DNA of 64,000 nucleotides from Chlorella sorokiniana (Eukaryota; Chlorophyta; Trebouxiophyceae; Chlorellales; Chlorellaceae), in contig CP084609.1 of NCBI GenBank assembly GCA_025917655.1, positions 2,294,001 through 2,358,000 of the forward strand, read 5' to 3'. The number at the start of each line of letters is the position of its first letter. Within the stretch, counting starts at the first letter, position 1. A model generated the notes under the pieces. The model saw only the letters and a program-made list of their open reading frames with translations. It had not been told where the DNA came from and ran no database searches. Position numbers and translations under genes: made by a program. Positions 8,089 through 52,632 of the stretch are shown here, one piece after another.

Positions 8089-11000
8089 ACCACCCCCGGC
8101 AGCTATGCCCACCTGTGAGCACGATGAGGCGGTTCTCAACGTCGGCGGGGTCGCCGTCGATGCTGCCAGGGTGGCGTGCCAGCTGGGCAAAGCCCTCGTC
8201 CAGGCCGGCCTGCAGGGGTTGGGGTTTTGGTCGGGGGAGGCACATCGCGTGGTAAAGGCAGGAGGTGCTGTGGGGGCGGCAGGGGGGTGGGGGGCGGGGA
8301 GGGGGGCAGTGTGCTTGCGCTGGCGGCAGGCCGAGCACCTGTGCCGCACAGCCCATGCAAGCATCAGCAGGGCAGAGCGGTGCTAGGTAGTCGCAACAAG
8401 CCACACATAAGAACGGCAGACAACGGCAGTGGCAGCACCGCAGGTTGTCAGCAAGGGCCCTGCCTGGAAGTTGGTGCCGCCGATGGTGCGCAGCGCGTCC
8501 ACCCCCGCCTTGATGCCAGCAGCGTCGGCGTCGCCCCACCGCCCCATGCGCTTGGGCGTGGCGGCGCGATCCGAGAAGAGCGAGATGGCGGCTGCGGCAG
8601 GCGGGCAGGGTGGGGCCGGCGGGGTGAGAGGCATGGTGAAGGCGGTGGCCTAGGAGCGCGGAGCTGCTTGTGCGCCTCGGCTGCTTGCAGCCAGGGAGCA
8701 CGTGCAGGCAAACGCTGTGCCTGTGAGCATCTCCCGGCAGAACGAGGCACACAGTGTGCAATAAAAGACGTATCACACAAAGATGCAGCACAATTGGACC
8801 GCAGCTGAAAAAACGCACCGCAGTCGTCGGGCGCCAGCCTGTCCAGCATCCCCTTGATCACATCCTTTGCCACCCCCAGCTTGGTGCGGGCAGCCTCTGC
8901 GCAACGACAGGGGGCAGGGGCCAGAACGATTGTGAGTGCGGCTGGCATTGAGGGAGCAGCGGTGGGATGGAGGGGTGAGCCCCGAGGGAGCTGAAGAGGG
9001 CAGGCTGAGAGCGCGCAGCACGGTGGCACTGTGGAGGCAAGGAGCATGGGCATCGGCTGAGCCAGCGGCGGCCGCAGCAACGGCGCATCGGTGCGGCGCC
9101 AGCCCCGGGCCCGCCCCCTGCTCCCACCCTCGGCGTCTCCCCGGGCGTGCGCCGCGCCGCCGCCGCCGCCGCCGTAGTAGTGCCCGTCAAAGGAGGAGTC
9201 CATGGAGCCCGACACATCCAGCAGGATTGTGAGGTTGAGGCGGGGGCGGCGGAAGTCGGTGATGCCGGAATCAAGGCCCACAGCCAGGAAGAGGTCCGGC
9301 GAGCCCACACCGCCCTCCTCGCCCGGACCCGCGCTTTCTTTCACGCCCACTGCTGCACCGCTGCTGCCGGAGCAGGCCTCCGGGTGCAGCAGCGGGTCTG
9401 GTGCCAGGGCCACAGAGTAGGAGGGCGCAAAGAGCTCGGTGGGGCGCGGCGGTGCCGCGGCTGCGCCCTCTTCCCTGCAATTTCACAAGGGTAGGGCAAG
9501 AGAGAATGCTTCCTTTGGGTGCTGCGTGCCTGCGGCAGAGGCTGGGCCACCTGCAAAAAGCAGCTGCTGCGGACGGCCGCGTCGGCGGCGGCAAGAGGCC
9601 CCCTGGGCGCCAGCGCACCGCCCCCAGCTCACCCTTCCACCGCCACCCAGTCCTCGGCGGGCGAGGTGTCGAAAAAGTAGTCCTGCCAAGGGGAGACAGA
9701 GAAAGAAAGGGGTGAGCAGGCGGAAAAAATGGCGCCCAGGCAGCACGGCCATCACACGGTCTCAGTGCTCAGCGCGGGCATTACTTGCATGCACAGCGTG
9801 AGCAACTGAAATGCTACCACCAGGCAGCCAAGGCTGCCGCCCACCTTGATGAGACCCTCGAAAGTGACGTCGCTGGGTAGCGGCAGCTGCCCCGCCGCCA
9901 CGTTCTCCCTGAAGTTGGCCGCATCCTGTGCGCCCCCGCCGTGAACCCAATCGCCTGATCCGGCGCCGCCGCGGCACACGCCATGGGGGCGCAGCCAGGG
10001 GCCGCGCAGCCAAACCTCGGCATGGCGCCGCCGCCAGGGGGCCCTGCTGCGGCGAAGGGCGCAGGGGAGGCGAAGCCCGCAGGGGCGGCGGGGGGCCCTG
10101 CTGCGGCGAAGGGCGCAGAGGAAAAGGCGAAGCCCGCAGGGGCGCCCGAAGGGCGCAGGGGAGGCGATGGGCGCAGGGGCGCTGAAGCCCGCAGGGGCGC
10201 CCGAAGGACGCAGAGGAGGCGAAGGCCGCAGGGGAGGCGAAGGGCGCAGAGGAGGCGAAGATCACAGGGGCGCCGAAGCCCGCAGGGGCGCCCGAAGGGC
10301 GCAGAGGAGGCGAAGCCCGCAGGGGCGCCCGAAGGGCGCAGGGGAGGCGATGGGCGCAGAGGAGGCGAAGGGCGCAGAGGAGGCGAAGCCCGCAGGGGCG
10401 CTGAAGCCCGCAGGGGCGCTGAAGCCCGCAGGGGCGCCGAAGGACGCAGAGGAGGCGAAGGCCGCAGGGGAGGCGAAGGCCGCAGAGGAGGCGAAGCCCG
10501 CAGGGGCGCCGAAGCCCGCAGGGGCGGCCACGCGCATCGGCGGCGCGGCGCCGAAGGCCATCACGGGGGCGCAGTGCCGCCCCCGCCGAAGGAAAACGAC
10601 GGCGCAGATCCACCCAAATTGACGAATCCTGCGCACAGGGAGAGCACAGAGAAGCAAGATGGGGTCGGGGCCGACAAGCGTTGCTGCTGCAGAGCGCCAA
10701 AAGCAACGGTGTCAACGAGCCGCTCACCAGGCGACCCACCCCCTCGATAACGGGGAGCCATGTCTTCTACAGCGGTTGCGTCCCAGACGTTTTCAACCTG
10801 CAAAAGGAGCAGGCTGGATGCAGAAGTAAGGGATCTGGCCCGCTGGACGGCCAAGTCCCAGCACACGGGCTGCGGCAGGCGGCAGCCCGTGTGCTGGGAC
10901 GGGCTGGTTGGGGCCTGTTGGGAGGGGCCTGGCGTCGGGGACCATCGCATCGCTAACGCTATTACGGAGAGCCTTGCAAACAATCCTACAGCGCGATCCC

Positions 11001-26800: not shown

Positions 26801-29239
26801 TGGGCCCGGGGATGGGTGCGTGTGAACACGCACTGAAAAGTTTGTGTGTGTGTGGTGGTGGTGGCGGATAGGCACCCTCCCTCCAGAGTGCCAGTGCCAT
26901 GGAAAACAGGGGTTTGGGGGCGGTTGATTCTGGATGTGGCTCTCGCCACCTCTCCTCCTTCTCTCTCCAGCTCCGCGTCCCCCTGCCTCCATGCTGCAAC
27001 CCTGCCCTCACCCGGCCCTCCCTCGCCCCCGTCCCCCTCCCTTCCACCCCCTCGCCCATCCTCAGTTGAGTACGACTACCTTCCCGCCCACCAGTGCCAC
27101 GCCTCCCTCGAGACCAAGCGCGTTGGCGGCCTCTTCTTCTCCGGGCAGCTCAATGGTACCACAGGTGGGGCGGTGCTTGCTGGCTGTGATTGTGATGGGG
27201 GCGGGTTGGTTTGGGGGGGCGCACGTCAGGGATGGGGGGCAGGCTGGCAAGGGGCTCTGGGGCTCAACCTTGGGGCTGGCTGGCCCGGCAACGGTTGCCT
27301 TGGCCTCGGTACAGGGCGGTAGCTAGACTGGCAAGCCGGGCGTGTGCGTGTCTGCTGCTCGCTGCCCTGCTCGCCGGCCGTTGTTCCCACGAGCATTCAA
27401 GAGGCACACCTTGCCCACACGCCCTCCTCACTCGCCTGTGCCCTTCCCCCGCCCTCCCATGCCCAGGCTACGAGGAGGCGGCTGCTCAGGGGCTGGTGGC
27501 GGGGCTCAACGCTGCGCGGCGCGCCGCCGGGTTGGAGCCGGTTGTACTGCCTCGGGAGTCGTCGTACATCGGCACGCTGCTGGATGACCTGGTGACCAAG
27601 GATCTGCGGGAGCCGTACCGCATGCTGACCAGCAGGTGTGCTGCCGCGGAAGCTGCACCGCACCAGGCGTGCCCGCCGCCGTCGCCGCCCTGCCTTGTGT
27701 CCGCTCGTGCGTTGAGAGGCCCTCTGGAGCACCTGGATGGCACCTCTGAGGCAACTCGGTCAGACGGCGGCTGCTGGGCGCCATCTCTGCTGCTGTTCCT
27801 CGCGCCGCGTGCTGACCAGCTCTGTGCTGCTGATCGCCTGCACCGCCCCCTTTGTCGTTTTGTACCGCAGGAGCGAGTACCGCCTGGTGCTGCGGTCGGA
27901 CAACGCTGACCGGCGGCTGACGCCGCTGGGGCGGGAGCTGGGCCTGGTGGGCGAGGCCCGCTGGCGACTCTTCCAGGTATGCTGTGCACGCTGGGTGGGG
28001 GCTGTTGGAGGGTGGGGTCGTTGGTGTGGGTGTGGGCTTTGGACTGACTTGTCAGAAGGGCTGCCGGCAGCCACCGGCGGGCCCCAGGCTCACCGTTGCT
28101 GGCCTGCTCTCCCGCTTCCCTACCCCACCCCTGCCACCACACCACATGTCTCCCCACCCCCCCGCCGCCGGCAGGAGAAGCAAGCGTGCATCGAGGCGGA
28201 GCGGGCGCGGCTGGAGGCGACGCGGCTGGCGCCGGGCCACCCGCTGGCAGCTGCAGCCGAGGCGGCCAGCGGTCAGCGGGTCCCCGCCGCCGTCACTCTC
28301 GCCGACCTCCTGCGCCGACCGCACGTCCACTACACGCTGCTGGAGGCGCACGGCCATGGGGGGCCTGCACCGGAGGCCACCTGTGCAGCCAGCAGCAGCG
28401 CGAGCGGCAGCGGCCTGGCGGCGGTGGCTGTAGCAGGGGCGGAAGTGGGAATAGAGCATGCGGCTGGGTCGGGCGCTCCTCCCGCCCCTGCACTTGCCGC
28501 TGGGGATCTGCACGGCGCCGCCGGCGAGGCGGGTGCTGCCGCGTCTGCACCCGCTCAGCAGCGCCCAGCGCGCGCTGTGCTCACCGCCGCTGAGAAGGAG
28601 GCCGTTGAGATCGACATCAAGTATGAGGGTTTCATCCGGCGCCAGGCCAAGCAGCTGGCGGCGGTGGCGGCCAAGCACGCGCGGCGCCTGCCAGACGACC
28701 TGGACTATGGCGGGATAGAGACGCTGTCCATGGAAGCTCGCGAGAAGCTGGCCAAGTGCGAGGGGATGAGGGAGGACCGCGAGGGGGTGGTGGGGGACCT
28801 GCATGAACCTTCGGAAGTGGCCTGGGCGTTTGGGGGCCTGCATTGAGGCTGGGCTCTCCCAGCCACCACAGCCACACCCGCCCATCCCACCCCTGCCCCC
28901 TTGGGATGTGCTGGGCCAACTACCTGCGTCTCAATGTGGCCAACACCCTTGTCGTTGCCAACACCCCGCAGGATCCGGCCGCGCGACATTGGCCAGGCCA
29001 GCCGCATCGGCGGCGTGAACCCGGCCGACATCGCCAACCTGCTGGTGCACCTGGAGGCGCGGCGGCGGGGGGCTGCGCGCGCCGGCGGCGGCAAGGGCGC
29101 TGAGGCGGGCGAGGCGGGGCGGCCGCTCACCAAGAAGCAGCAGCGGAGGGCGCTGGCCGCGGTGGCGGTGGCGTCTGGGCGTGGTGGCGGCGACGAGGGT
29201 GCTGAGGAGCGGCAGCAGGAGCAGCTGGCCGCAGCATGA
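23868..29239 (+). CDS. MTO1: tRNA uridine-5-carboxymethylaminomethyl modification enzyme MnmG (GidA/MTO1)
   Basis: FAD-dependent enzyme that, with the GTPase MnmE/MSS1, modifies U34 of organellar tRNAs. Thirteen exons start at 23868-24029 (basic transit peptide) and 24184-24513. The FAD dinucleotide fold [13 protein letters not shown] is in the second exon. Family blocks follow: [79 protein letters not shown] and [16 protein letters not shown]. The exon 28175-28755 carries an Ala/Gly/Pro-rich insert of roughly 75 residues in the C-terminal domain, just before [10 protein letters not shown]. Four single bases appear to be missing in G/C runs (near 24484, 25601, 26028 and 26684), each inside a conserved motif. 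The intron after 25255 starts with GC. Mitochondrial or plastid targeting cannot be decided. Confidence 0.92.
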
Positions 29240-29386
29240 AGTCAGGGGTTGCTGGTGCGTGCACACACCCTTCTCTGAAGAAAGATCACATCAGTGGCAT
29301 GACCCTGGTCGTTACAATAGCGCGATTGCAAGGCAGCATGGGCTGAACTGCTCACTCGTGCACGCCTACGGTGGGCGTGGTGTACT

Positions 29387-29391
29387 TGTAA
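29387..29391 (+). terminator. TGTAA polyadenylation signal for MnmG
   Basis: TGTAA about 150 bp after the stop at 29239. Confidence 0.55.
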
Positions 29392-29508
29392 CGGAAAATT
29401 GAGAATGTGGAATCAAACAAGGAGTGGAACATGGCAAGATGAAATGTACAGGCAGAAGGGGAGGCATGAAATGTACTGGCAGAGGAAAAGCAGACAGAGC
29501 AGGAGGGG

Positions 29509-29513
29509 TTACA
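29509..29513 (-). terminator. TGTAA polyadenylation signal for the repeat-exon gene
   Basis: TTACA on the plus strand, about 160 bp beyond the stop at 29670 on the minus strand. It and the MnmG signal are arranged tail to tail. Confidence 0.5.
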
Positions 29514-29669
29514 AAACAATGCTGCACAGGTTGCGTGAGAGAAATTGATGCTGGTGCGGTGTCGCCACATGTGACGGTGGCCGGGAAGTTCAAAGGAAAC
29601 ATGGGCATTGTTTAAAAGCCCTTCAGTGCGGTCCCCATCAACCTGTCTCTTGGAACATCAGCCCGGGCT

Positions 29670-32600
29670 TCACTCGTCCAGCAGGGACAGCCGCAGGTGC
29701 AGGGGCTCCAGCTCCCAGGGCCCGCCCTTGTAGGCGAGCGGCAACTCGCTGCCATGCAGGCTGCGCAGCTGGGCGTCGGAAGGGCGGTCCAGCGCAGAGC
29801 TGGCCTGCCCACAGAACTGCGGCTGCAGGTCCAGGGCCTCGGGCAGCACGGCGCGGCGAAGCACAAGGGCAAGAACAGCAGCCTGCTCCAGCAGCTGCTT
29901 CTTTGCTTTCTTCAGCTCTGCAAACGCGGGTAGCAGTGCGGTGTTTGCACTGTTTGCACCTGGGGCGCAGGAGCGCTTGCTAAAAAATGCGCGCGTAGAG
30001 TTAACAAGCAGTGCCCTGGCCTGCGCTGCCAGGCCCCCTGCGGGCATGTGGTAATGCGGAAGAGCCAGCGCCACTGATGCTCACCGGTTGCATGCGCCTT
30101 GATCTCCAGCAGGCGCACGAGGCTTTGCCATTGGTCCAACTGATCAGCGGCGCCGCATTGAACTCAACAGCGTCGGCATTCCGCCGCGCGGCCATCGCCG
30201 CAACCAGCGTCAGGAGCAGGCCGTCTTGGCGCGGGTGCTCCAAAAAGCTGCGCAGCGCGTCCTCGCCCTTGGCGGCGGCTGCATATGGAAGAACAAAGAC
30301 TAGTGTTGGTTGGCTGGGTGGGGCGGGCAGCAGGTATGTTGTGGAGGTGAGGAGGGAGGGCACGACAACTGGGCGCGGCGGCAGCGCCGTTTGAGGCTGC
30401 CACTTAGCCAGGAGATGCACAGTGGGGCAGGAAAGTCCAGAACATGAGCGGGCACAAAGTTGAGGAGTCCAGTCGAGATGAGTGGGCCCCAATGCCCGAG
30501 GTAGCAGGATCTCAGCGACATGCAGAACAGGCTAGGCGGTCCACTGTCGAAAGCAGAAATCAACAGCCTGCAATGGCCACACCTTGGTAGTAGGCTGTAA
30601 GCTGGCCCTGAACCCTGTCCCAGGACCACTTTTTGTTCTTTCCACCATAAGCCCTGAGCGGCTTGATAACCTGCAGCAAACAAGACATGTTCAGCGCAAC
30701 AGGGCGTTCACAGCTGAGCTTTTAAACAAAGGGCGCAGCGGCACACAATGCAGGCTACAACGCCATGGCAGCGCAACAGTGCTTGCAGCACAGGCCAGCC
30801 CACACCTCCTGCAGCGCATCTGCCCTGCGTAGCCAGTCGTCGGCGGCATGGAACGGCGGCAAGTCTACTTTGCAGCTCTTAGCCTCAGCCTGCGGGGTGC
30901 ATCGAGGGCTTGGTAAGGTTTATAAGGGTCACAGACAGCAGGTTTAGGGAAGGGAAGTGCACCCACATGTGGGCCAGCAATGCGACCGCGCGGGCTGTTT
31001 ACAGCCCGGGGGCGCGCCCCCGCCCCTTGAACACACATCTTTTCGCATCACCCCCGCAGAAGCTACCTTCAGCTGCGCAATGAGCAGCTGCTCCTTTGCA
31101 TGGAGGCCCCTGTGGCCCTCCAGCACAGCCTTCACCAGGCCTGCATGACTTGGACGCAGGCCTAATAGCTGCACGACGGCCATATTCAACAGCTGCGTGC
31201 CTGCATGAATCACGACAAACACTTGTGTGTTGCAAGTTGAATGGGTACAGGGGAGTATCGTGAGTCGCTGGCTGCACCCCGAGTCCAGCCTGCAAGCATG
31301 CCACCCAAACACCCGGCCACATGGCAGCGCAAAAGCGTACGCATACCAGGGTGGGCAGCAGCGCGCCTGTGGTGATGAGCATGGGCGACCGCAGCTCCTT
31401 GTCCGCCTTGCGCATGACGCGGCTCTGCAGCTCCAACTTCTCAGCCATGCTTCCAAGCGTCTTGGAAGTCGAAGCGAGCGTCTTGGAAGTCGAAGCGAGC
31501 GCCTTGGAAGTCGAAGCCTGAAACTTCTTGGAGTCCGTCATGTCGGTCTCAAGGCGGTCAAGTGTCTCGCTGGTGGTCTTGTGGTTCTGGTTTGTGGTAT
31601 CCTGCACTTCCTTCAGGGTCTTATCCAGCTTCTCCAGGGTGTCAAGAATCTTATCCAACCTAGAGGGTGGGTTTGAGAGGAGGCGAGAGTGAGGGCAGGT
31701 TTGTCCAAAGCACAACACAAGAAGTGAATCCCATGTCTTCATCAGCCCAGTGGGAAGGAAAAGGCTGCCAAAGTCCGAAAGCACTGCTGTGGCAAGAGCC
31801 AGCTCCATGCATAATACAAGTCGGGCGGAGAGAGCACACCTGTCCCTCGCTGGCACGGCCGGCTGCGCCCTGCCGCTTCCTCCGCCTCGGGGATACTGTA
31901 GGACAAGGGGGCGCTCATTGCAGGAGTCAGCACAGGCCACATTTCGATCGCGCGTGCAAGCTCGCTTGTTGATCAGACAGGCGAGGCCAGGACTCCCAGC
32001 AAACGAGACGGAGAAAGCACATTTATTGCAGCGTAGAAGCACACCTGCCGCCCTCTGGCGGGACCGGCTGCACCCCTGCCGCTTCTTCCGCCTCGGGGAT
32101 ACTGTAGGACAAGGGGGCGCTCATTGCAGGAGTCAGCACAGGCCACATTTCGATCGCGCGTGCAAGCTCGCTTGTTGATCAGACAGGCGAGGCCAGGACT
32201 CCCAGCAAACGAGACGGAGAGAGCACATTGATTGCAGCATAGAAGCACACCTGCCGCCCTCTGGCGGGACCTGCTGCGCCCCTGCCGCTTCCTCCGCCTC
32301 GGGGATACTGTAGGACAAGGGGGTGCTCATTGCAGGAGTCAGCACAGGCCACATTTCGATCGCGCGTGCAAGCTCGCTTGTTGATCAGACAGGCGAGGCC
32401 AGGACACCCAGCAAACGAGACGGAGAGAGCACATTGATTGCAGCATAGAAGCACACCTGCCGCCCTCTGGCGGGACCGGCTGCACCCCTGCCGCTTCCTC
32501 CGCCTCGGGGATACTGTAGGACAAGGGGGTGCTCATTGCAGGAGTCAGCACAGGCCACATTTCGATCGCGCGTGCAAGCTCGCTTGTTGATCAGACAGGC

Positions 32601-33891
32601 GAGGCCAGGACACCCAGCAAACGAGACGGAGAGAGCACATTGATTGCAGCGTAGAAGCACACCTGCCGCCCTCTGGCGGGACCGGCTGCGCCCCTGCCGC
32701 TTCCTCCGCCTCGGGGATGCTGTAGGACAAGGGGGTGCTCATTGCAGGAGTCAGCACAGGCCACATTTCGATCGCGCGTGCAAGCTCGCTTGTTGATCAG
32801 ACAGGCGAGGCCAGGACTCCCAGCAAACGAGACGGAGAGAGCACATTGATTGCAGCATAGAAGCACACCTGCCGCCCTCTGGCGGGACCTGCTGCGCCCC
32901 TGCCGCTTCCTCCGCCTCGGGGATACTGTAGGACAAGGGGGTGCTCATTGCAGGAGTCAGCACAGGCCACATTTCGATCGCGCGTGCAAGCTCGCTTGTT
33001 GATCAGACAGGCGAGGCCAGGACACCCAGCAAACGAGACGGAGAGAGCACATTGATTGCAGCATAGAAGCACACCTGCCGCCCTCTGGCGGGACCGGCTG
33101 CACCCCTGCCGCTTCCTCCGCCTCGGGGATACTGTAGGACAAGGGGGTGCTCATTGCAGGAGTCAGCACAGGCCACATTTCGATCGCGCGTGCAAGCTCG
33201 CTTGTTGATCAGACAGGCGAGGCCAGGACACCCAGCAAACGAGACAGAGAGAGCACATTGATTGCAGCGTAGAAGCACACCTGCCGCCCTCTGGCGGGAC
33301 CGGCTGCGCCCCTGCCGCTTCCTCCGCCTCGGGGATGCTGTAGGACAAGGGGGTGCTCATTGCAGGAGTCAGCACAGGCCACATTTCGATCGCGCGTGCA
33401 AGCTCGCTTGTTGATAAGACAGGCGAGGCCAGGACTCCCAGCAAACGAGACGGAGAAAGCACATTTATTGCAGCGTAGAAGCACACCTGCCGCCCTCGGG
33501 CGGATGGCTGCGCCCCTGCCGCTTCCTCCGGCCCGGGGATGCTGGAGGGGGATGCACACCGCTGGGGTCAGAGCGGCGCGGCTTCGGCATCATCTGCCCT
33601 CTCTTGGCCAAAAGGCGAGATTATGCATCATATAAAGGGATTGCGGGCCTTGGGGATCCTGCATGCGCCTCTCAAACCCTTTAAGCACCTGTCGCCAACG
33701 CGGTCGCCGTCGTTGGCGCTCAAATAACCGTCCTTGCCGTGGTTGGGCTTGGCGAGCGGCTTGCGAGCCTGGGCCCTCTTTGGGGACACAGCCAACGCCT
33801 GGCGTTGTGGTGTCCGAGGTTTAAGCTGCTGAAAGCAGCCCAACCTCCTCGGGCGTATGCACAGCGCCCTGTTTGGGGCTGCACACTGCAT
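29670..33891 (-). CDS. unknown coiled-coil protein with tandemly repeated mini-exons
   Basis: Not recognised. Inferred exons, right to left: 33689-33891 (basic N-terminus from ATG at 33891), 33487-33541, seven 57-nt exons (33281-33337, then every 206 bp down to 32045-32101), 31840-31895, 31347-31659, 31067-31192, 30806-30889, 30583-30670, 30085-30278 and 29670-29917. Phases agree throughout except one apparent base missing within 30085-30278; allowing for it the protein is about 588 aa. Each 57-nt exon encodes a 19-residue Arg/Gly-rich unit, YPRGGRSGRGAAGPARGRQ or close variants. The 31347-31659 exon begins LDKILDTLEKLDKTLKEV and is a strong coiled coil, with three ASTSKTL repeats. The C-terminal part (LLEQAAVLALVLRRAVLPEA) is also helical. 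The first exon could begin further upstream. RG-rich repeats often bind RNA, but nothing proves that here. Confidence 0.62.
31457..31519 (-). repeat. 21-bp coding repeat, three copies
   Basis: Three tandem copies with core TTGGAAGTCGAAGCGAGCG (plus strand) encode successive S/ASTSKTL heptads in the coiled-coil exon. They extend the coiled coil by exact heptads. Confidence 0.85.
31840..33541 (-). repeat. 206-bp exon+intron tandem array
   Basis: Eight full periods of 206 bp with only a few differences per copy, bordered by diverged end units. Every unit holds a 57-bp block flanked on the minus strand by CCTACAG before and GTGTGCTTCT after, i.e. ready-made 3' and 5' splice sites, plus a 149-bp intron-like block with a candidate branch site GTGCTGACTCC about 30 bp before the acceptor. 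The end blocks are 55 bp (33487-33541) and 56 bp (31840-31895) and convert reading phase at entry and exit. Confidence 0.85.
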
Positions 33892-34995
33892 TGCGTAGAT
33901 GGCCGGCGTTGCCCGAAGTGCCTTGGACAGCAACTCGCAGAGAAACCTGTCAGATGAACGGGCAGTGGTGATTTGAAGCACGGGATATAAAACAAATGAC
34001 GGATGATCGGAAAGTCCAACGCCACCAAGCACCTGGTGGAAGTTGGTGGAAACTTGGAACTCAACTTGGCAAGGCGTTGCCGCTTATTGCCATGTGAGCA
34101 TTCCCGCAACGAACACTTAGAGGCCCCGTACACCAGCCGCCGCCGACCCGTCGACATTGCTCTCCAGCTTGTACCGCCCCTGCTTTAACCGCTGAGGAGC
34201 TGCAGGCCGCTGCCATGGAGGCAAAGGCTGCCACATATGCACCTGCACAGCAGTGATCAGCATGAACTGCGCCTCCCGCAGCAGCAGCAGCAGACGTCGG
34301 CCGCGGACTCAAGTCGGCGCACACATGGGCGGCGGCGTGGCGGGCGTGATGGACCCGCAGCAGGAGCAGCTGTCCGCAGCATGAACATCAGGGTTGCCGT
34401 TCGCGAAATTGCATTTCCTGATCATTCAAGCGGCTTAATAAAATCTTCTCAGGTGAGTTTGAGAGCCGGAGACCTGAGAGAGGAGAGACTAGGCTTGCAA
34501 TGGCGGCAGCAGAGGGGCCTCCCTGCCCTCTGCAGCTGTGCTGTGCAACCACAAGATAGATCAAATGCAACTTTTCCGCTTGTTGGCCAGACGAGCATCG
34601 AGTCAGGAGGTGGGGACAGGCCACTTGCCCCCGGGGACACTTTTGTATCCCCAGAAAGGGCAGTCGCCCTGAGACACTCCCATTGATCGCTAGCGCCAGC
34701 ACGAGGCTCCAGTGCCATTGCCAGTTGTCATTCACGGCCGTAACCGCCCTCAAAAGCCGCAGCAAGCCGGTAAGTTGCCTCGAGGGAGCAGGAGCATGGG
34801 AGAACTGTGCAGGCATAGCAAGGTTGTGAAACACACAAAGCATGATGAGTGCGTGCAAACGGGCGCCAGCGCCGTTTCCGACCCCCGAACACACACATGT
34901 GATTGCCGGGATTGCCGGGCATGCATGGCTTTGGCGGAGTGCTCCTCCCCGAGGCAGTGCTGACAGCCGTCCCAAAATGCATCTTGCAGAGCGGC
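33892..34995. promoter_or_regulatory. divergent spacer between the repeat-exon gene and the CobW gene
   Basis: About 1.1 kb between outward-facing starts. No gene is supported. At about 34350-34378 there is a 28-of-30 match to the last codons and stop of MnmG (core CAGCAGGAGCAGCTG, then CCGCAGCATGAA), perhaps a stray gene fragment. Both promoters should lie in this stretch. Confidence 0.45.
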
Positions 34996-37900
34996 ATGGT
35001 TGAAACTCGGGCGCACCGACGCCTGGACCCGCCCGCACACGGCCACGAGGAGTGCGCCGCCGCACAGCCGGGCAGCGTGGGCGAGGCTGACGGCCGCCTC
35101 CCTGTCACGCTGCTCTCTGGCTTCCTGGGCGCGGGCAAGACGACTCTTCTCAAGCACATACTTCAGAATAAGAAAGGCCTCAGGTGATGCATCCCGACTT
35201 CCAACATTGCGGTGCAGCGGGGCCTCCCGGCCCCTTGTACCAGCGAGCTTGCAGGCCGGCCGCAGCTGTGCTCTGCCAGGCTGCCCCTTGCCCGCCCTGC
35301 CCCCTTGTCAAGCCCGTCTGGTGCTTCGACCGCAGGTGCGCGGTCATCGTGAATGACATGGCGGAGCTGAACATCGACGCCTCGCTCGTGAAGCAGGGGG
35401 CCTCATCCAGGCGAGCGCACGCGCCGGCGACGCACCGCCGCTGCCTCTCTCGCGACCCACTCTTGCGCCTGTAACCCACGCCCCATCTCCGGCCAGCGTT
35501 GGATCTGCCAGAGCAGCATGCTGTGCCTGTCGCACTTGCAAGCTGCGACCGATAGCCTTCAATCGCTTCCCGCCTTGCAGACCCAGGAGCGGCTGGTGGA
35601 GATGCAGAACGGGTGCATCTGCTGCACGCTGCGAGACGACCTGCTGCAGGCAAGCGACGCTCTGTGCACCTGCCCTGCTGTGCAGCCTGGAACATCCTTG
35701 GACAGGCACACACGGCTGCATCCCACTATAACCCTGCCAACCAGCGTCCTCAGGGCCCACCGCCCGCGTTCTGTGGGGCAACCGCCCGCCCGCCTGCCAC
35801 GAGCCCGTTCCGAGCGGCACGCATCTTAAGCCTGCCGCGGCTCACGCTGCCTGCCTGCCGCCTGCGCAGGAGGTGTCGCGCCTGGCTGGGGAGGGGCGCT
35901 TTGACTACCTTGTCATCGAGTCCACGGGCATCAGCGAGCCGCAGCAGGTGGGCCCAGCTGCCCGGGCATGCACACGCGCGGGGTGGCGTGGAGTGCGGGC
36001 GCTGGTCGGGGTGGAAGCCGACGTCGGGACCCCAGAGATGGCTCCCCTATCCCCTGGCCCCTCGTCAGGGCCGTCTCGGGCCTGCGCAGCGCAGCGAGCC
36101 GACAGCGCTCGCACCAATCCCTGCAGGTGGCGGAGACGTTTGAGCTGCCGCCATCCGAGGGCGCTGAGCCTTTGAAGAAGGTGGCCGCCGCCCCCGCGCA
36201 GGCTGCCGCGCTGCATGCCTGCTCATGCCCTGCACTCCGAGTCCAGTGTTGGAGGGGAGCCAAGGTTGCGTGTTGACTAGTCCAGCCCCTGATTCTACCT
36301 CTTGAGGCAGCTGGGCGGCTCCCCTGAGAGGAGAGGCCCCGTCTCCCTCCCCCTCAACCTTGGACACTCTCCCTGACCGTCCCTACCACTGCCATGCCCC
36401 TCCCTCCCGCAGCTGGCCCGCTTGGACACGTGCGTGACAGTAGTGGATGCCGCCTCCTTGCTCCTCAACATGGCCAGCATCGAGACGGTGGCGGTGAGGG
36501 GGCGCCGCCCGCCGCCACTGCCGCCGCTGCCGTGGCGGGGGCGTCCTCTGACTGAAGCTCTTGCTGCTGCCAGCCCCCAAGCACATCCACATAAAGCTGC
36601 TCTGCCCCGCGCAACGTGGCGTTTGAGATTCCAACGTGTCACACAGCCTTGTGCTCAGGCAGTGCTGCATCCCCCACCCCGCGATGTGCCGCAGGATCGG
36701 GAGGGGCCCGAGGCTGCAGGAGGCGAGCGCAACGTCGCAGACCTGCTGCTGGACCAGGCCCGCCGCAGCTATGGCTCTCCCTGTCCCCTCTGCCGCTGCA
36801 CATTTCTCGCCTGCTGTCGCCGCTCCAGCGCTGCTGCTGCTTTCCTCCCCTGCCTTGTCCAACAGCAGTGGGCAGACTGAAGGTGTCTTCAAGAATTGCC
36901 GCGGGCTCTGCATGCTCAACCTTCCTCCCTGCACGCCTTACGCGTCCTGTCGCCCTCTGCAGATCGAGTTTGCGGACGTCATTGTGCTCAACAAAATCGA
37001 CTTGGTCACCGCAGAGGGTGAGCAGCGCACCCTTCCAGGCGCCAAGCAGCAGTTAACCTTGGACCACCTCAAAACTGACGTGGCTGGCGCACCCCGTGCC
37101 TCACCCCCGGCCCATTGCCTCCGCGCCTGCCCCTGCAGAGGCAAGGCGCCTGTCAGCCTTCCTCAGCAAGCTCAACCGCAGCGCCGCCATCCTGCCCGCC
37201 ACCAACTCGGAGGTCTGTTGCCATGTGCTGATCCGCGGCGGCTCACGCGGCTTTGCCTGGAGTCTTGCATTGGCCTTCTGTGCTGTTTTGATGTGGTTAC
37301 TGCCGCTGGCTGTGCAACGAGGGGCGATGTCACACTGCTTGTCTCTGGCAAGCTGCCAGCGGCTGCAATTTGCAGACAGGCAGGCCTGTCTGAGCACGGG
37401 CAGGCCCCCCCCACCCCCTCCCGCACCCTGCCCATCATCACCTCCTCAATCTCCCTGCCCACACGCTTGACCCCACTCTGCGCAATTGCCTCTCAAGCCC
37501 GCAGGTCGACCTGTCAGAGGTTGTGGGCACTGGCCGCTTTGACATCGAGAAGGCAGCAGAGGTGAGGGTGGGACAGGGTGCGCGCATGCAACGCAGGCTC
37601 ACACTAGCCACCGAGCACCGCGCGCCCAGCACTTGCAGTCCTCATGTGGTAAGGCCCCCTTGGCATGCCTCCATTCCACAGGACCCCCTACACCACTGCC
37701 ACTTTACCTTCCGACACTTGCCTCTCCTTGCTGCCCCCTGCTGTGCAGGCTGCGGGTTGGCTGCAGTCGCTGCAGGAGCCGCCCACGCCTGAAACGGAGG
37801 AGTACGGCATCTCCTCCTTTGTTTACCGGTGAGGTGCCAACTGTAACGTATTTGCATGGGCTGGCGGGTGGGACTGGGGTTGGAGAGGGGTGCGCGAAAG

Positions 37901-47706: not shown

Positions 47707-50700
47707 ATGGAGCCGGCGATTGACGGCGCAGAGCTCACCGAGGTGAGCAGTTGGAGTGATCGGGCAAACAGCAGTGCCTTGGCAGGCATTGTTCATGCCT
47801 GGTGGGTGCCCCCCCCGCTTGGCTGCCGCCGGCTGTCGACGCCCGCCGCTGTGCGGCCCTGCCCTGCAGGCATTTGCTGGCCCAGAGCTGGTGGAGGGGC
47901 AGTATGCATCAGAGGACACTCTACACAGCAGCGCTGCTTTCTTGCGCAACACGCTGAGAAGTGAGCAGGCAGCACTGCCAGGCGGACTCGCCTAAAGGAG
48001 AGGCGGCTGGCGGGCATGCCACGACCGCCTGCCCTGCCGCTGCGTGGCCCCGCACATTCACAATCAACCGCTGCAGCCGGCACTCCCCGTCGTCGGCTGC
48101 AGCGCTGCAAGCACAGCATTGCGGCAAGCAGTATCGAACCACCCGCGCTGCGCCGCCTGGCTCGCCCCGCGCAGGCAAGGGCTTCTGCGCCGACCTCAAC
48201 CTGCTGTCGGCTGACACGGCAGACGTGGTGGCCACGTGCAACACATTCTACACCCTGCTGCTGCGGCACGACCGGGATGAGACCTTCAAGGGCCAGCTGA
48301 AGAACGGTGCGGCGGCAAGCGCAGCGGGGTGGCGCAGCAGGGGACATGCCACCGTGTGCAGGCGCCTCCGCCGCTTGGAGCCGCCCGAGCGACCCTTGCG
48401 CTGTGCGGGCTGCCCGTGCAGCCTCCGCGGTGGCGCGTGCTGCGCTGATGGCCGCATGCTCGCGCCCCGCCTGCTCTGCAGAGATTGCTGGCTTGCGGCA
48501 CACGATGGAGGGGGTGGCACGGGAGAAGGAGCGGCTGCTGTCGCGACTGGAGGCCAAGGAGCGGGAAGTCGGCGGCCTGGCCACCAAGGCGAGCCTGAGC
48601 GGGGATGGGATGCGCTCAGCGGGCGCAGCGGGCAGTATCGGGGCGCGTCGTGAAGCGCGGGCTCCGCCCTACAGCCTTGTGCGGCAGCCGCGGGCCCCTG
48701 GCGCTGGCGCGCCAAACCCGCCACGCCCTCGCTTCTAGCCCTCTCTGCACCCGCCTCCCTGCCTTGCGGCTGACACATGCCCCGACACTCCTTTCCACCC
48801 CCTCCGCCGCCGCTTCAGGTCAAGCTGACAGAGGAGCTGCACCGGGACGAACTCAAGGCAGCCCGCAAGGAGGCCGAGGAGATGCAGAAGAAGGTGCGCA
48901 GCCGGCCCGCAGTTCACAGCAAATGCAGCTCTGTCCAGCAGCTCGACTGGCCAGAGCAAGCGGGCAGGCTGAGTCTGCGGTGCTGCGTCTGGGTGCTTGG
49001 TTGCCGCGACTCTGTGGCTGCTCCGCAAGCCGCACCGCGGATGGATGGCAGTAGGACCTCCTTGCCCTTCTTCGCCTCTTCCCTTGGCTCTCGTTTGTTG
49101 GATTGGCAAAGCTGCCTCGCGTCGCCGACCCCATGACTGCCAGCCCTGCCTGGCTGCAGGTGTCTGGGCTGGAGGGGCGGCTGAAGCAGTTCCAGCACGA
49201 GCTCAAGCGGCGGGAGCGGGAGTTTGAGCGCCTGCAGGAGCGGTGAGCGCCTGCCGCCGACCGCGGCCGCCCCTCCAGCGCGCGCATTGTCGCGGCCTGG
49301 GGGTGCGGCTTTGGGGCGGGCTGGCAGGCAGGCAGGGTCGGGAGTGAGCCGGGTGGGGGAAGGCTGACGCTCGGGACCGCGCGGCGAGCAGCCAAGGCAA
49401 GGGCCAGCGGCGGCGGCTAGCAGAAAGGCTGCGCTCCCCGCGCTCCCCGCGCTCCCCTGCCGCTTCACTCACCCAACCTTGGTCTCCCAGCTTGCCCAGC
49501 TTGCACATGCTCCCATGCAACCCCTCCCCCAGGCTCTCCCACCACCTGGCGGACAAGAAGCGCAGCGAGAAGGCGGCGCTGGACATGGCCGGGAAGCTGA
49601 CGCAGCAGCTGCAGGTGGGCTGCGGCCAGCTGCGGCGCGGTGGCAAGGGGTGGAGGTGGCGTCCTCTCCCAGGAGTTGCTTCGGTTGGCTTGCTGGCAGG
49701 CGGCCCGCCCAAGGCAGAGATTTCCAAGGCACTTAAAAAAGCGCGCAGCTTGCCAATGGCCACAACCTCCTCCCCCGCCCCTGAATCAGGCCGGCCCTCC
49801 GGCGCGCGCGCGCGCGCAGCGGCGGCGCCGCCGCGCTGCGCAGCGACGAGGGGCTCAAGGCTGTGGTGGCCGCTTACGAGGCGAAGCAGTCGGAGCTGGG
49901 GAAGGAGGTCCGGGACCTGAAGGCCACCCTCGCCTCGCTGCAGGTGGGCCCATGGCCCCGCCTCCCCCGCCCTGCACCAGCCCCGGACTTTGTGCCGCCG
50001 CTGCCGGCGCCCCGCGCTGCGTGCACCCGGCACCGGATGCCCCCGCCCTCCCCGCTGCTGCCTTGTGCACCTCAGTTCATCCCCGCACACACCATTTTTT
50101 GTTCACAAACCGCCCTTGCACACGCCAGAAACCCCCTCCTTGCCCCACGCCCACACCTGCACGCTCGACATTGATTCTTCCTGCCTACCGCCTCCCCCAT
50201 GCAGGCGGAGTACAAGGATGCGCTGAACCGCCAGGTGGCCCGCCAGGCCCAAGACGCCGCCAGCAGCGCCGCCGACGCCGCCGCCGACCAGGCCTTCCTG
50301 CAGAGTGAGCGGCGGCGGGTCCCTGGACACCCCCCACCTCTGCCGCTGCCTCCCACCCACCAACCTACAGCTGCCACGCGCCTCTGGGGCCCCACCCGGC
50401 CCCAGCCCTGCGGCATTAAGGGCTCCTGCCTTGTCGCGCCCCGCCCTGCTACTGCCCTCCCGCCATCCGCTTGCCCTCCCGCCTTTGTTCTGCGCCTTGG
50501 CACCCTTGGGACCCACCTGGCCCCTCCTCTGCCACCATTCGCCCTCCTGCCCTCCCACCATCCACCCTTCTGCCCTCCCACATCTGCCCACCCACCATCC
50601 ACACCCCCTTGCCCTCCCACCTCTGCCCACCCACCATCCACACCCCCTTGCCCTCCCACCGCTGCCCACCCACCATCCACACCCCCTTGCCCACCCACCA

Positions 50701-52632
50701 TCCACACACCCTTGCCCTCCCACCATCCACACCCCCTTGCCCTCCCACCGCTGCCCTCCCACCATCCTTCCAACCCCTTCCCCAACCCTCCCCCCTTCTC
50801 CAAAACACTCACAGGCGTGCCGTCTCTGAGCGAGGAGGAGCTGCGTGCCGAGCTGGCCGCCCGCTCCAAGAAGCTGCAGCGCCGCGCCGGCAGCCTGGCC
50901 TCGGCGGCGGCGCGGGAGGAGGACTGCGCAACGCAGGGCGAGCGCCGCCTGTTCCAGGACCTGCAGACGATGCGGGTGGGCTGCCGCCGCGTGTAGCATG
51001 GGTGGCCCGCCGCCTGCTTGCCGCAAAGCCTGCCGCTGGGCTCCCTGTTTGTCGGGTTGAGCGTGTGTGTGGGCTGCTGCTATGGGCAGCATGGCACGCG
51101 CCGGCTCGTCTCCCGCGGGTGGTGCGCCATGCGCCATCGCAGCCGAGACCGCTTCCCGCTCGGCCAGTTGCCCAGCTCTGGATTGCCCTCGGCCAGGAGT
51201 GCCTGGGCTCTCCTGGCTTGTCTCACATCCGTCGCACCCCCTCCCCCTTTCCAGGGCGTGGTGGCTGACCAGGAGCGGCTGCTGACTGCTGTGCTGTCCT
51301 CCCTGCGCTCCTCGCACAAGGTGGGACGCTGTGTGTGAGGGGAAGGGGAAGGGGTGCATGCTGGGCACGCTGGGCGGCTGCCGGGATTATGCACACGGGA
51401 GAGCGCCTGGGTCGTTCTTAAAGGCAGCCCGGCTGGTTGAGCAGGCAGCCCGTAAGAGCAGAGCAGGGGCGGCAACGTGGCGGCCACCGACTTTAAGCGA
51501 CCAGACGGCATCGCCCCTGCGGCGAAGAGCCCCCGCCTGCATGGCGCCCCTCGATGCTGCAACCTGCCTGCTGCGCCCCACGCCCCACCCTGCTGTGCCT
51601 GGCCCCCACATACGCACACACACACACACACACACATTCACACACACACACCGCCCCCACCCGCCCCCTAACACACACACCACACACCATCCAGGCCAAG
51701 GAGGCGCAGCACCAGGCAGACATGCGGCGCATGGCGCAGCACTACCAGGCGCAGCTGGCGGCGGCCGAGGGCGAGATCCAGGCGGCCAAGACGGAGCAGG
51801 CGGCGGCGGCGCAGAGCGAGGTGGATGCGCTGCGGGAGCAGCTGCTGGAGGTGAAGGGGTGCTGCAGCAGCGGGCGGAGGCGGAGCTGGCGGCGGCCCGG
51901 GCCGCGGGAGAGGCAGCCGCCGCGCAGCTGCGCCAGCAGCTGGGCGCGGCGCGAGCCGCGGCGCAGGAGGCCGCGGCCGCAGCGGAGAGGCGGGCGGGTG
52001 AGGCGGCGGCGCTGCAGGCGGAGCGGGAGGCCGAGCTGGAGGCGCTGGCGGCTCAGCAGGAGGCAGAGCGGGAGGCGTTGGCGGCGCAACAGGAGGCGGC
52101 CGCCGCGGCGCAGCGCCGCTTCGAGCTGCTCAAGAAGAACTATGAGGTGGGTAGCCTTGCTGGATGGGGCAGCAGCTGCGGGGGAGGGCTGCCCAATGTC
52201 GGCCAGCTGCAAACTTGCTCTGCAACCATCCGCGGCCAGCAGGCTGCCGGGCGGCTGCGCTCGCCCACCCCAGACCCCCTCTCTCTCCTGCCTTCCCTCC
52301 CGCAGGCCCTCATGCGCCAGTATGCACCCGGTGTGGGCGCCGGAGTTTTCCTGGAAAGGGCTGTTTCACGCAAGGCGGCAGGTGGGTGGCTGCCACTGCA
52401 GCCGACTGCTGCGTTGCTGCCCCACCCAGATTGCTGCTCGACCTCCTTCTGTGCTTGGGAGCTTGCCGGCTTGTGTCAGCCTCGACCGCTTGAGTGAGCC
52501 AGTAAGAGCTTGTGCGGCCTGTTGCGTCACATCGTCTGTCCCGCCGCTGCAGAGCTGACTGAGCTGGAGATGCAGGAGGCTGCCGCCGCAGCGACAGACA
52601 GCATCCCTGCGGCGGTGTCGCAGCGCGCATAG
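47707..52632 (+). CDS. ADIP / Msd1-SSX2IP family coiled-coil protein
   Basis: Relative of the afadin- and alpha-actinin-binding protein (ADIP), SSX2IP and fission yeast Msd1, which anchor microtubule minus ends at centrosomes or spindle poles. Exons 47707-47742, 47870-47960, 48175-48306, 48482-48588, 48819-48893, 49160-49242, 49533-49614, one near 49862-49943 with an uncertain start, 50205-50304, 50815-50975, 51255-51320, 51695-52146, 52306-52381 and 52553-52632. The conserved N-terminal domain reads ADLNLLSADTADVVATCNTF then LLLRHDRDE, followed by a coiled coil (RLEAKEREVGGL, LKQFQHELKRREREFERLQE) and an Ala/Glu/Gln-rich helix in exon 51695-52146. One base seems missing from the G run at 51856-51859, after LREQLLEVKG. 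The intron after 48588 starts with GC. In an alga the likely site is the basal body or spindle pole. Confidence 0.8.
50550..50780 (+). repeat. CCACCATCCACACCCCCTTG minisatellite in an ADIP-gene intron
   Basis: Five to seven imperfect copies of a 20-36 bp C-rich unit lie between the exons ending at 50304 and starting at 50815. The complementary strand is a G-rich tract. Confidence 0.8.
51614..51652 (+). repeat. (CA)n microsatellite in an ADIP-gene intron
   Basis: Two CA runs joined by TTCA just upstream of the acceptor at 51694. Confidence 0.85.

Follow-up and report, generated by a model that had tools for sequence, protein, structure and literature searches.

The gene considered here lies on the minus strand, 33891 to 29670, of a 64,000-nucleotide window of the Chlorella sorokiniana genome (contig C8 2294001-2358000), belongs to a small paralog family, and contains a tandem array of 206-bp units. 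A paralog on contig C1 of the same genome has a single exon and intron homologous to the repeated unit. The interpretation that we favour, at slightly better than even chances, is that of a protein-coding gene in which a symmetric 57-nt exon and its downstream intron were tandemly amplified and the copies are spliced as mini-exons. On the DNA evidence, use of the array copies as coding sequence in mRNA is somewhat likelier than its opposite.

Structure of the array

Applied to the 64-kb window, Tandem Repeats Finder (TRF) places the array at 31825-33548, with a period of 206, 8.4 copies and 96% matches. Read on the minus strand, it holds seven units (r1-r7), each a 57-nt block followed by 149 nt, and the block borders are uniform, with CCTACAG on the 5' side and GTGTGC on the 3' side. 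TRF and the unit alignment confirm the 206-bp array of seven 57-nt blocks and 149-nt spacers reported in the first-pass annotation; its list of blocks has to be extended to nine recognizable copies, counting the end copies r0 (55 nt) and r8 (56 nt). Compared with the unit, r8 has one G fewer in a G run, and the lengths of r0 and r8 together are divisible by three. Four of the seven full-length blocks translate to YPRGGGSGRGAAGPARGRQ, two to HPRGGGSGRGAAGPARGRQ, and one to the GGR form that had been quoted before. Across r1-r7, variation is limited to 4 of the 57 exon columns and 6 of the 149 columns of the intron. Moreover, r1-r3 differ from r4-r6 at only 2 of 618 bases, which suggests that the most recent expansion was probably the copying of a block of three units at once.

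In a search of the 38.8-Mb genome (15 contigs), all matches fell in this array, 9 of 9 for a 104-nt unit query and 8 of 8 for the full 149-nt intron at E<=10, these counts being lower bounds. Introner-type elements are near-identical intron sequences dispersed over many unrelated loci; an element of this type was rejected as the source of the array, as unit and intron matches are confined to it.

A single exon and intron in the C1 paralog

The part of the gene from the coiled coil to the end has paralogs on contigs C1 and C3. A profile of the seven units was run against both strands of four paralog loci, 37 kb in all with a 2-kb overlap between two of them, and matched significantly at one place, L048 4585-4763, which lies immediately upstream of the C1 coiled coil (E=3.6e-6); the remaining matches at E<=5 had E=0.41 and E=4.2. 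The C1 exon at L048 4575-4631 is 57 nt long and aligns without gaps to the unit from column 11, with 33 of 47 bases identical and with AG and GT placed as in the array unit. The start of the subsequent C1 exon looks like a second, degenerate copy, giving nine copies in the window gene versus one intact and one apparently degenerate copy in the paralog. With its equal exon length and homologous intron, the intact copy supports the earlier claim that a whole exon and intron unit had been duplicated. Its matching place makes it well supported that the ancestor carried the exon and intron and that the window gene multiplied an existing unit.

The positions of the substitutions point to a coding frame. 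Columns 11-57 of the exon alignment between the window gene and the C1 paralog contain 14 mismatches, of which 9 fall at third positions of frame 0, the frame of the Arg/Gly repeat (P=0.0065); when the whole exon of 57 columns is taken, the figures are 12 of 23 (P=0.014). Three frames were tested and the P values are uncorrected. The proportions of synonymous (pS) and nonsynonymous (pN) differences are 0.65 and 0.18 in this frame, compared with 0.26 and 0.33, and 0.16 and 0.37, in the other two. Gene-wide, pS is 0.498 and pN 0.299 for the C8-C1 pair (316 codons), and 0.600 and 0.314 for the C8-C3 pair (four exons, 165 codons).

Gene model and proposed mechanism

The gene model consists of a basic first exon (e1), the nine-copy array, a coiled-coil exon and five further exons (c2-c6), in surroundings of high G+C with many short introns and GCAG acceptors. 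Its features are as follows.

33689..33891, minus strand: e1, putative first coding exon of 203 nt, ending in phase 2, product MQCAAPNRAL...GDRVGD
33554..33607, minus strand: a0, possible degenerate further unit with approximate end, from a MAFFT alignment with C1 judged by eye (weak)
33487..33541, minus strand: r0, 55-nt copy at the start of the array, 2 nt short of the unit
32045..33337, minus strand: r1-r7, seven 57-nt predicted mini-exons with 149-nt introns between them, from TRF, unit alignment and C1 homology; start to end at 33337-33281, 33131-33075, 32925-32869, 32719-32663, 32513-32457, 32307-32251 and 32101-32045
31840..31895, minus strand: r8, last array copy, 56 nt
31347..31659, minus strand: exon encoding an apparent coiled coil by its sequence (LDKILDTLEK...), starting in phase 2, with a paralog match on C1
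31067..31192, minus strand: c2 exon, C8-C1 pS 0.466 and pN 0.266
30806..30889, minus strand: c3 exon, C8-C1 pS 0.436 and pN 0.411, little constraint
30583..30670, minus strand: c4 exon, C8-C1 pS 0.559 and pN 0.267
30085..30278, minus strand: c5 exon, net 1-nt frame clash inside the second half
29670..29917, minus strand: c6, last exon, stop codon included

The start of a0 resembles the beginning of the C1 57-nt exon, and its acceptor has been lost (CTTTTGG). As sequenced, e1, r0 to r8, the coiled-coil exon, c2, c3 and c4 read as a single open frame, 441 codons long and free of stops, and the array exons account for 510 of the 1766 nt of the model (29%). Removal of r0 alone or r8 alone from the spliced model produces 7 or 8 stops; with both left out there are again 0. 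Unspliced translation of the array was rejected, since each frame contains 7-9 stops on the gene strand and 10-11 on the opposite strand. Splice sites were scored with 14 donors and 15 acceptors of the family, mostly equivalent introns of the three paralogs and hence few of them independent. On this scale the array donor, identical across all nine copies, reaches 11.5 versus a family mean of 9.8, the next GT in the unit scoring 3.1, and the assigned acceptor is the top-scoring AG in the unit.

We hypothesize that unequal exchange or slippage multiplied one pre-existing 57-nt symmetric exon together with the intron after it, probably with a three-unit step. The strong donor and a pyrimidine-rich acceptor of its own would define each copy, and the copies would be spliced as successive mini-exons, each adding about 19 residues between the N-terminus and the coiled coil. 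The first 50 residues of the e1 product include 12 K/R and 0 D/E, a composition by which the leader may be transit-peptide-like, and the repeat product could be a disordered basic linker. Copy number would be free to change in frame provided that r0 and r8 are treated alike. The idea that protein length can vary without breaking the frame is thus retained for the 57-nt copies and restricted for r0 and r8, which keep the frame only together.

Evidence against the favoured interpretation and alternative readings

Several observations weigh against this interpretation, and they are treated here together with the alternatives. The array acceptor scores 4.1, under the lowest of the 15 family acceptors (6.8, all GCAG), while the r0 acceptor scores 2.4 and the acceptor of the coiled-coil exon, CCCTCTAG, scores -1.4; the first-pass annotation had described the same splice sites in every unit, and of these the donor is above the family average and the acceptors are below the family minimum. 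The end of e1 and the start of the coiled-coil exon are both in phase 2, and joining them without the array is also in frame with 0 stops. The matching phases noted earlier are real, and they fit equally with the array, without it, or with an altered number of 57-nt copies. Furthermore, the unit is open in all three frames, and the gene strand offers 30 AG..GT choices that give open exons with a length divisible by three, the one made previously among them, compared with 9 on the other strand. The notion that openness or matching phases prove the frame was rejected, as all unit frames are open and skipping of the array is phase-compatible. The array could then be an intronic minisatellite, whose unit multiplied while e1 was spliced straight to the coiled-coil exon, with the repeats removed as part of an intron carrying decoy donors. 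The weak array, r0 and coiled-coil acceptors and the end copies, whose lengths are no longer multiples of three, suit such an origin, which we consider unlikely and nevertheless worth serious attention. It is opposed by the C1 paralog, where the 57-nt exon is retained with identical boundaries and without an array, by the third-position bias in frame 0, by the exon alignment with 0 gap columns versus 39 in the intron, and by the same strong donor in nine copies. The strength of the C1 comparison has its own bounds, as the exon-only match covers 35 of 49 bases versus 32 of 49 in the best unrelated locus compared, and the C1 intron is 78 of 118 identical, nearly equal to the exon at 33 of 47, so that the two differ in their gap columns. 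An alignment to the C1 paralog also covers the final 30 nt of e1, where 1 of 8 mismatches lies at a third position, giving no support for the assumed phase-2 frame.

Codon usage speaks for a different frame. The reference comprised 2046 codons of protein-kinase loci (30 loci were returned, 5 listed with stops were excluded in advance, and stops led to the removal of 3 of the other 25, leaving 22), with a mean of 0.401 per codon (standard deviation 0.190) for true-frame windows and -0.301 (standard deviation 0.225) for open wrong-frame windows. Arg/Gly frame 0 scores -0.047, well below true-frame windows, whereas frame 1, which encodes an acidic Pro/Ala repeat, IPEAEEAAGAQPVPPEGGS, scores 0.327 and lies among them; the third frame scores 0.014. 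The Arg/Gly frame given in the first-pass annotation is therefore contested, the C8-C1 substitution positions favouring it and codon usage preferring the acidic one. Splicing of the array in the acidic frame would involve skipping of r0 and r8, which leaves 0 stops, or use of r0 from an acceptor 20 nt upstream and skipping of r8, since the resulting 75-nt r0 without r8 also rejoins the coiled-coil frame; the one-G difference of r8 in a G run might conceivably be a base error. We find this rather improbable, given that just 3 of the 14 C1-exon mismatches are at third positions of the acidic frame, that its synonymous divergence (dS) is 0.32, lower than the 0.82 of the gene as a whole, and that in the C1 exon no frame stands out by codon usage, the acidic one scoring 0.013. 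Very improbable in our judgement is a splice-selectable switch, in which inclusion of r0 and r8 gives the basic Arg/Gly repeat and skipping of both gives the acidic Pro/Ala repeat, with the coil in frame either way; if true, joint use of r0 and r8 would pick between two linkers of opposite charge from one DNA array. A further possibility is that the array expanded within a pseudogene or an untranslated 5' region and that any translation starts downstream, for example at ATG 31808 or inside the coil. It draws on the net 1-nt frame clash in c5 relative to c6, where the C1 counterpart has one open frame over query 1-68 and the window over 1-52 only, on an in-frame unspliced reading from 32042 to 30999, on the ATG at 31808 being in the coil frame, and on a metagenome protein (P0003) that begins at an ATG inside the coil. 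The c5 clash may reflect a decaying gene or a base error, and it leaves a functional full-length protein uncertain. The C3 paralog shows a comparable clash in c6 that the metagenome version P0001 does not have, which makes single-base assembly errors or differences between strains plausible for both clashes. Decay is further opposed by the gene-wide C8-C1 excess of pS over pN and by c5a (pN 0.098 versus pS 0.477), although such ratios reflect past selection on the pair and not its present state, and we hold a decaying gene to be a poor prospect. Amplification of a coding exon and its intron remains the interpretation that we prefer.

Paralog family and homology searches

The spliced coil-to-c5 query matched no protein at E<=0.001 among 3482 candidates. 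A profile of the three paralogs, which scored only the 8000 candidates with the most shared words, retrieved two metagenome proteins at E<=0.01, which on visual inspection match the C3 and C1 paralogs. The coiled-coil region search returned one metagenome protein, the above-mentioned P0003, identical over 14% of the query; it is 97.7% identical to the window over 129 residues and matches the end of the coiled-coil exon and the following intron, and the metagenome contigs that encode it reach 53.8 kb. No Pfam family exceeded its cut-off, the best being ATG17_like on the coil (E=0.00046, 20.2 bits versus a cut-off of 43). A PDB search gave one match (E=1), and Rfam gave nothing up to E=0.5 over 28000-36000. 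The scan of viral-contig proteins yielded 83 pattern stretches with no relative among them, a 20-base pattern had a single match in the viral contigs, and the pattern search of genome contigs gave 0 matches.

Repeats of other kinds occur in the family. The coiled-coil exon of the C3 paralog (L049 4964-5202) contains an in-exon tandem repeat of 62-63 bp with 3.8 copies, of which the 62-bp copies shift the frame. The family thus seems to gain repeats by two different routes, an exon and intron array and an in-exon repeat. A third kind, a 21-bp repeat in three copies, is located at 31456-31517 within the coiled-coil exon of the window gene. Two more partial family copies are found at L055/L066 (C1:1147636-1147788), about 4 kb downstream of the C1 paralog and with an internal stop, and at L057/L067 (C3:3974812-3974964); the unit profile had no significant match in L066 or L067.

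Relation to known systems

Genes with tandemly repeated exons are a known kind, of which the present case has an unusually small unit. The window gene has tandem genomic copies with a predicted exon and intron, 7 of the 9 copies being multiples of three in length. For Schistosoma mansoni, Davis and colleagues are said to have described in 1988 transcripts whose 81-base repeats are encoded by exons repeated in tandem. The likeness lies in the tandemly repeated exons; the unit is 81 nt there versus 57 nt here, and the organism is another one. Spider flagelliform silk units are far larger than 206 bp. In the spider flagelliform silk gene, the introns that separate the exons closely resemble one another (PMC3522626), a feature it shares with the window gene, the protein being different. 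A further parallel is piccolo b of teleost fish, in which an exon with frame 0 at both ends was amplified 8-16 times in one paralog while the other kept the ancestral structure, and for which unequal crossover was proposed (Nonet 2012, PMC3484663). Both cases involve a single symmetric exon amplified in one paralog; the zebrafish exons, however, are 702-1350 bp long, encode a zinc-finger domain and have RNA support, whereas here near-identical 57-nt copies are known from DNA alone. LPA kringle IV-2 is a coding variable number tandem repeat whose unit includes exons and introns and which gives many protein isoforms; its unit is 5.6 kb and its polymorphism is demonstrated, compared with a 206-bp unit in one genome.

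In human paralogs, minisatellite expansion alters gene structure between recent copies (De Grassi and Ciccarelli 2009, PMC2812944), and one repeat type with 57-bp and 69-bp units is readable in two frames (PMC2812944). Those repeats sit within exons or at exon-intron boundaries, in contrast to the exon and intron units of the window. Schistosome micro-exon genes have exons of 3-81 bp, mostly multiples of three (PMC10526429), and micro-exons are reported to make up as much as 75% of the coding sequence in some of them, no minimum being stated (PMC4015677). The predicted 57-nt exons are within this size range and divisible by three, and the array exons together make up 29% of the model, well under 75%. 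Most schistosome micro-exon genes have a signal peptide and a secreted product; the leader of the window gene may be transit-peptide-like by composition. Among the open-licence papers listed in our searches we noticed no green-alga case of tandem exon and intron units, which is a weak statement.

If spliced as proposed, the locus would be a very compact satellite-like array, with a 206-bp unit, that doubles as a run of coding exons. It would provide a test of how splicing proceeds through seven consecutive donor and acceptor pairs that are nearly identical, and of whether protein length tracks array length between strains. The paralog with a single intact exon in the same genome would allow the states before and after exon amplification to be read together. 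Elsewhere in the window there are two further tandem repeats, one of 18 bp with 26.2 copies at 10051-10528, whose unit length would keep a reading frame, and one of 39 bp with 5.4 copies at 50547-50767.

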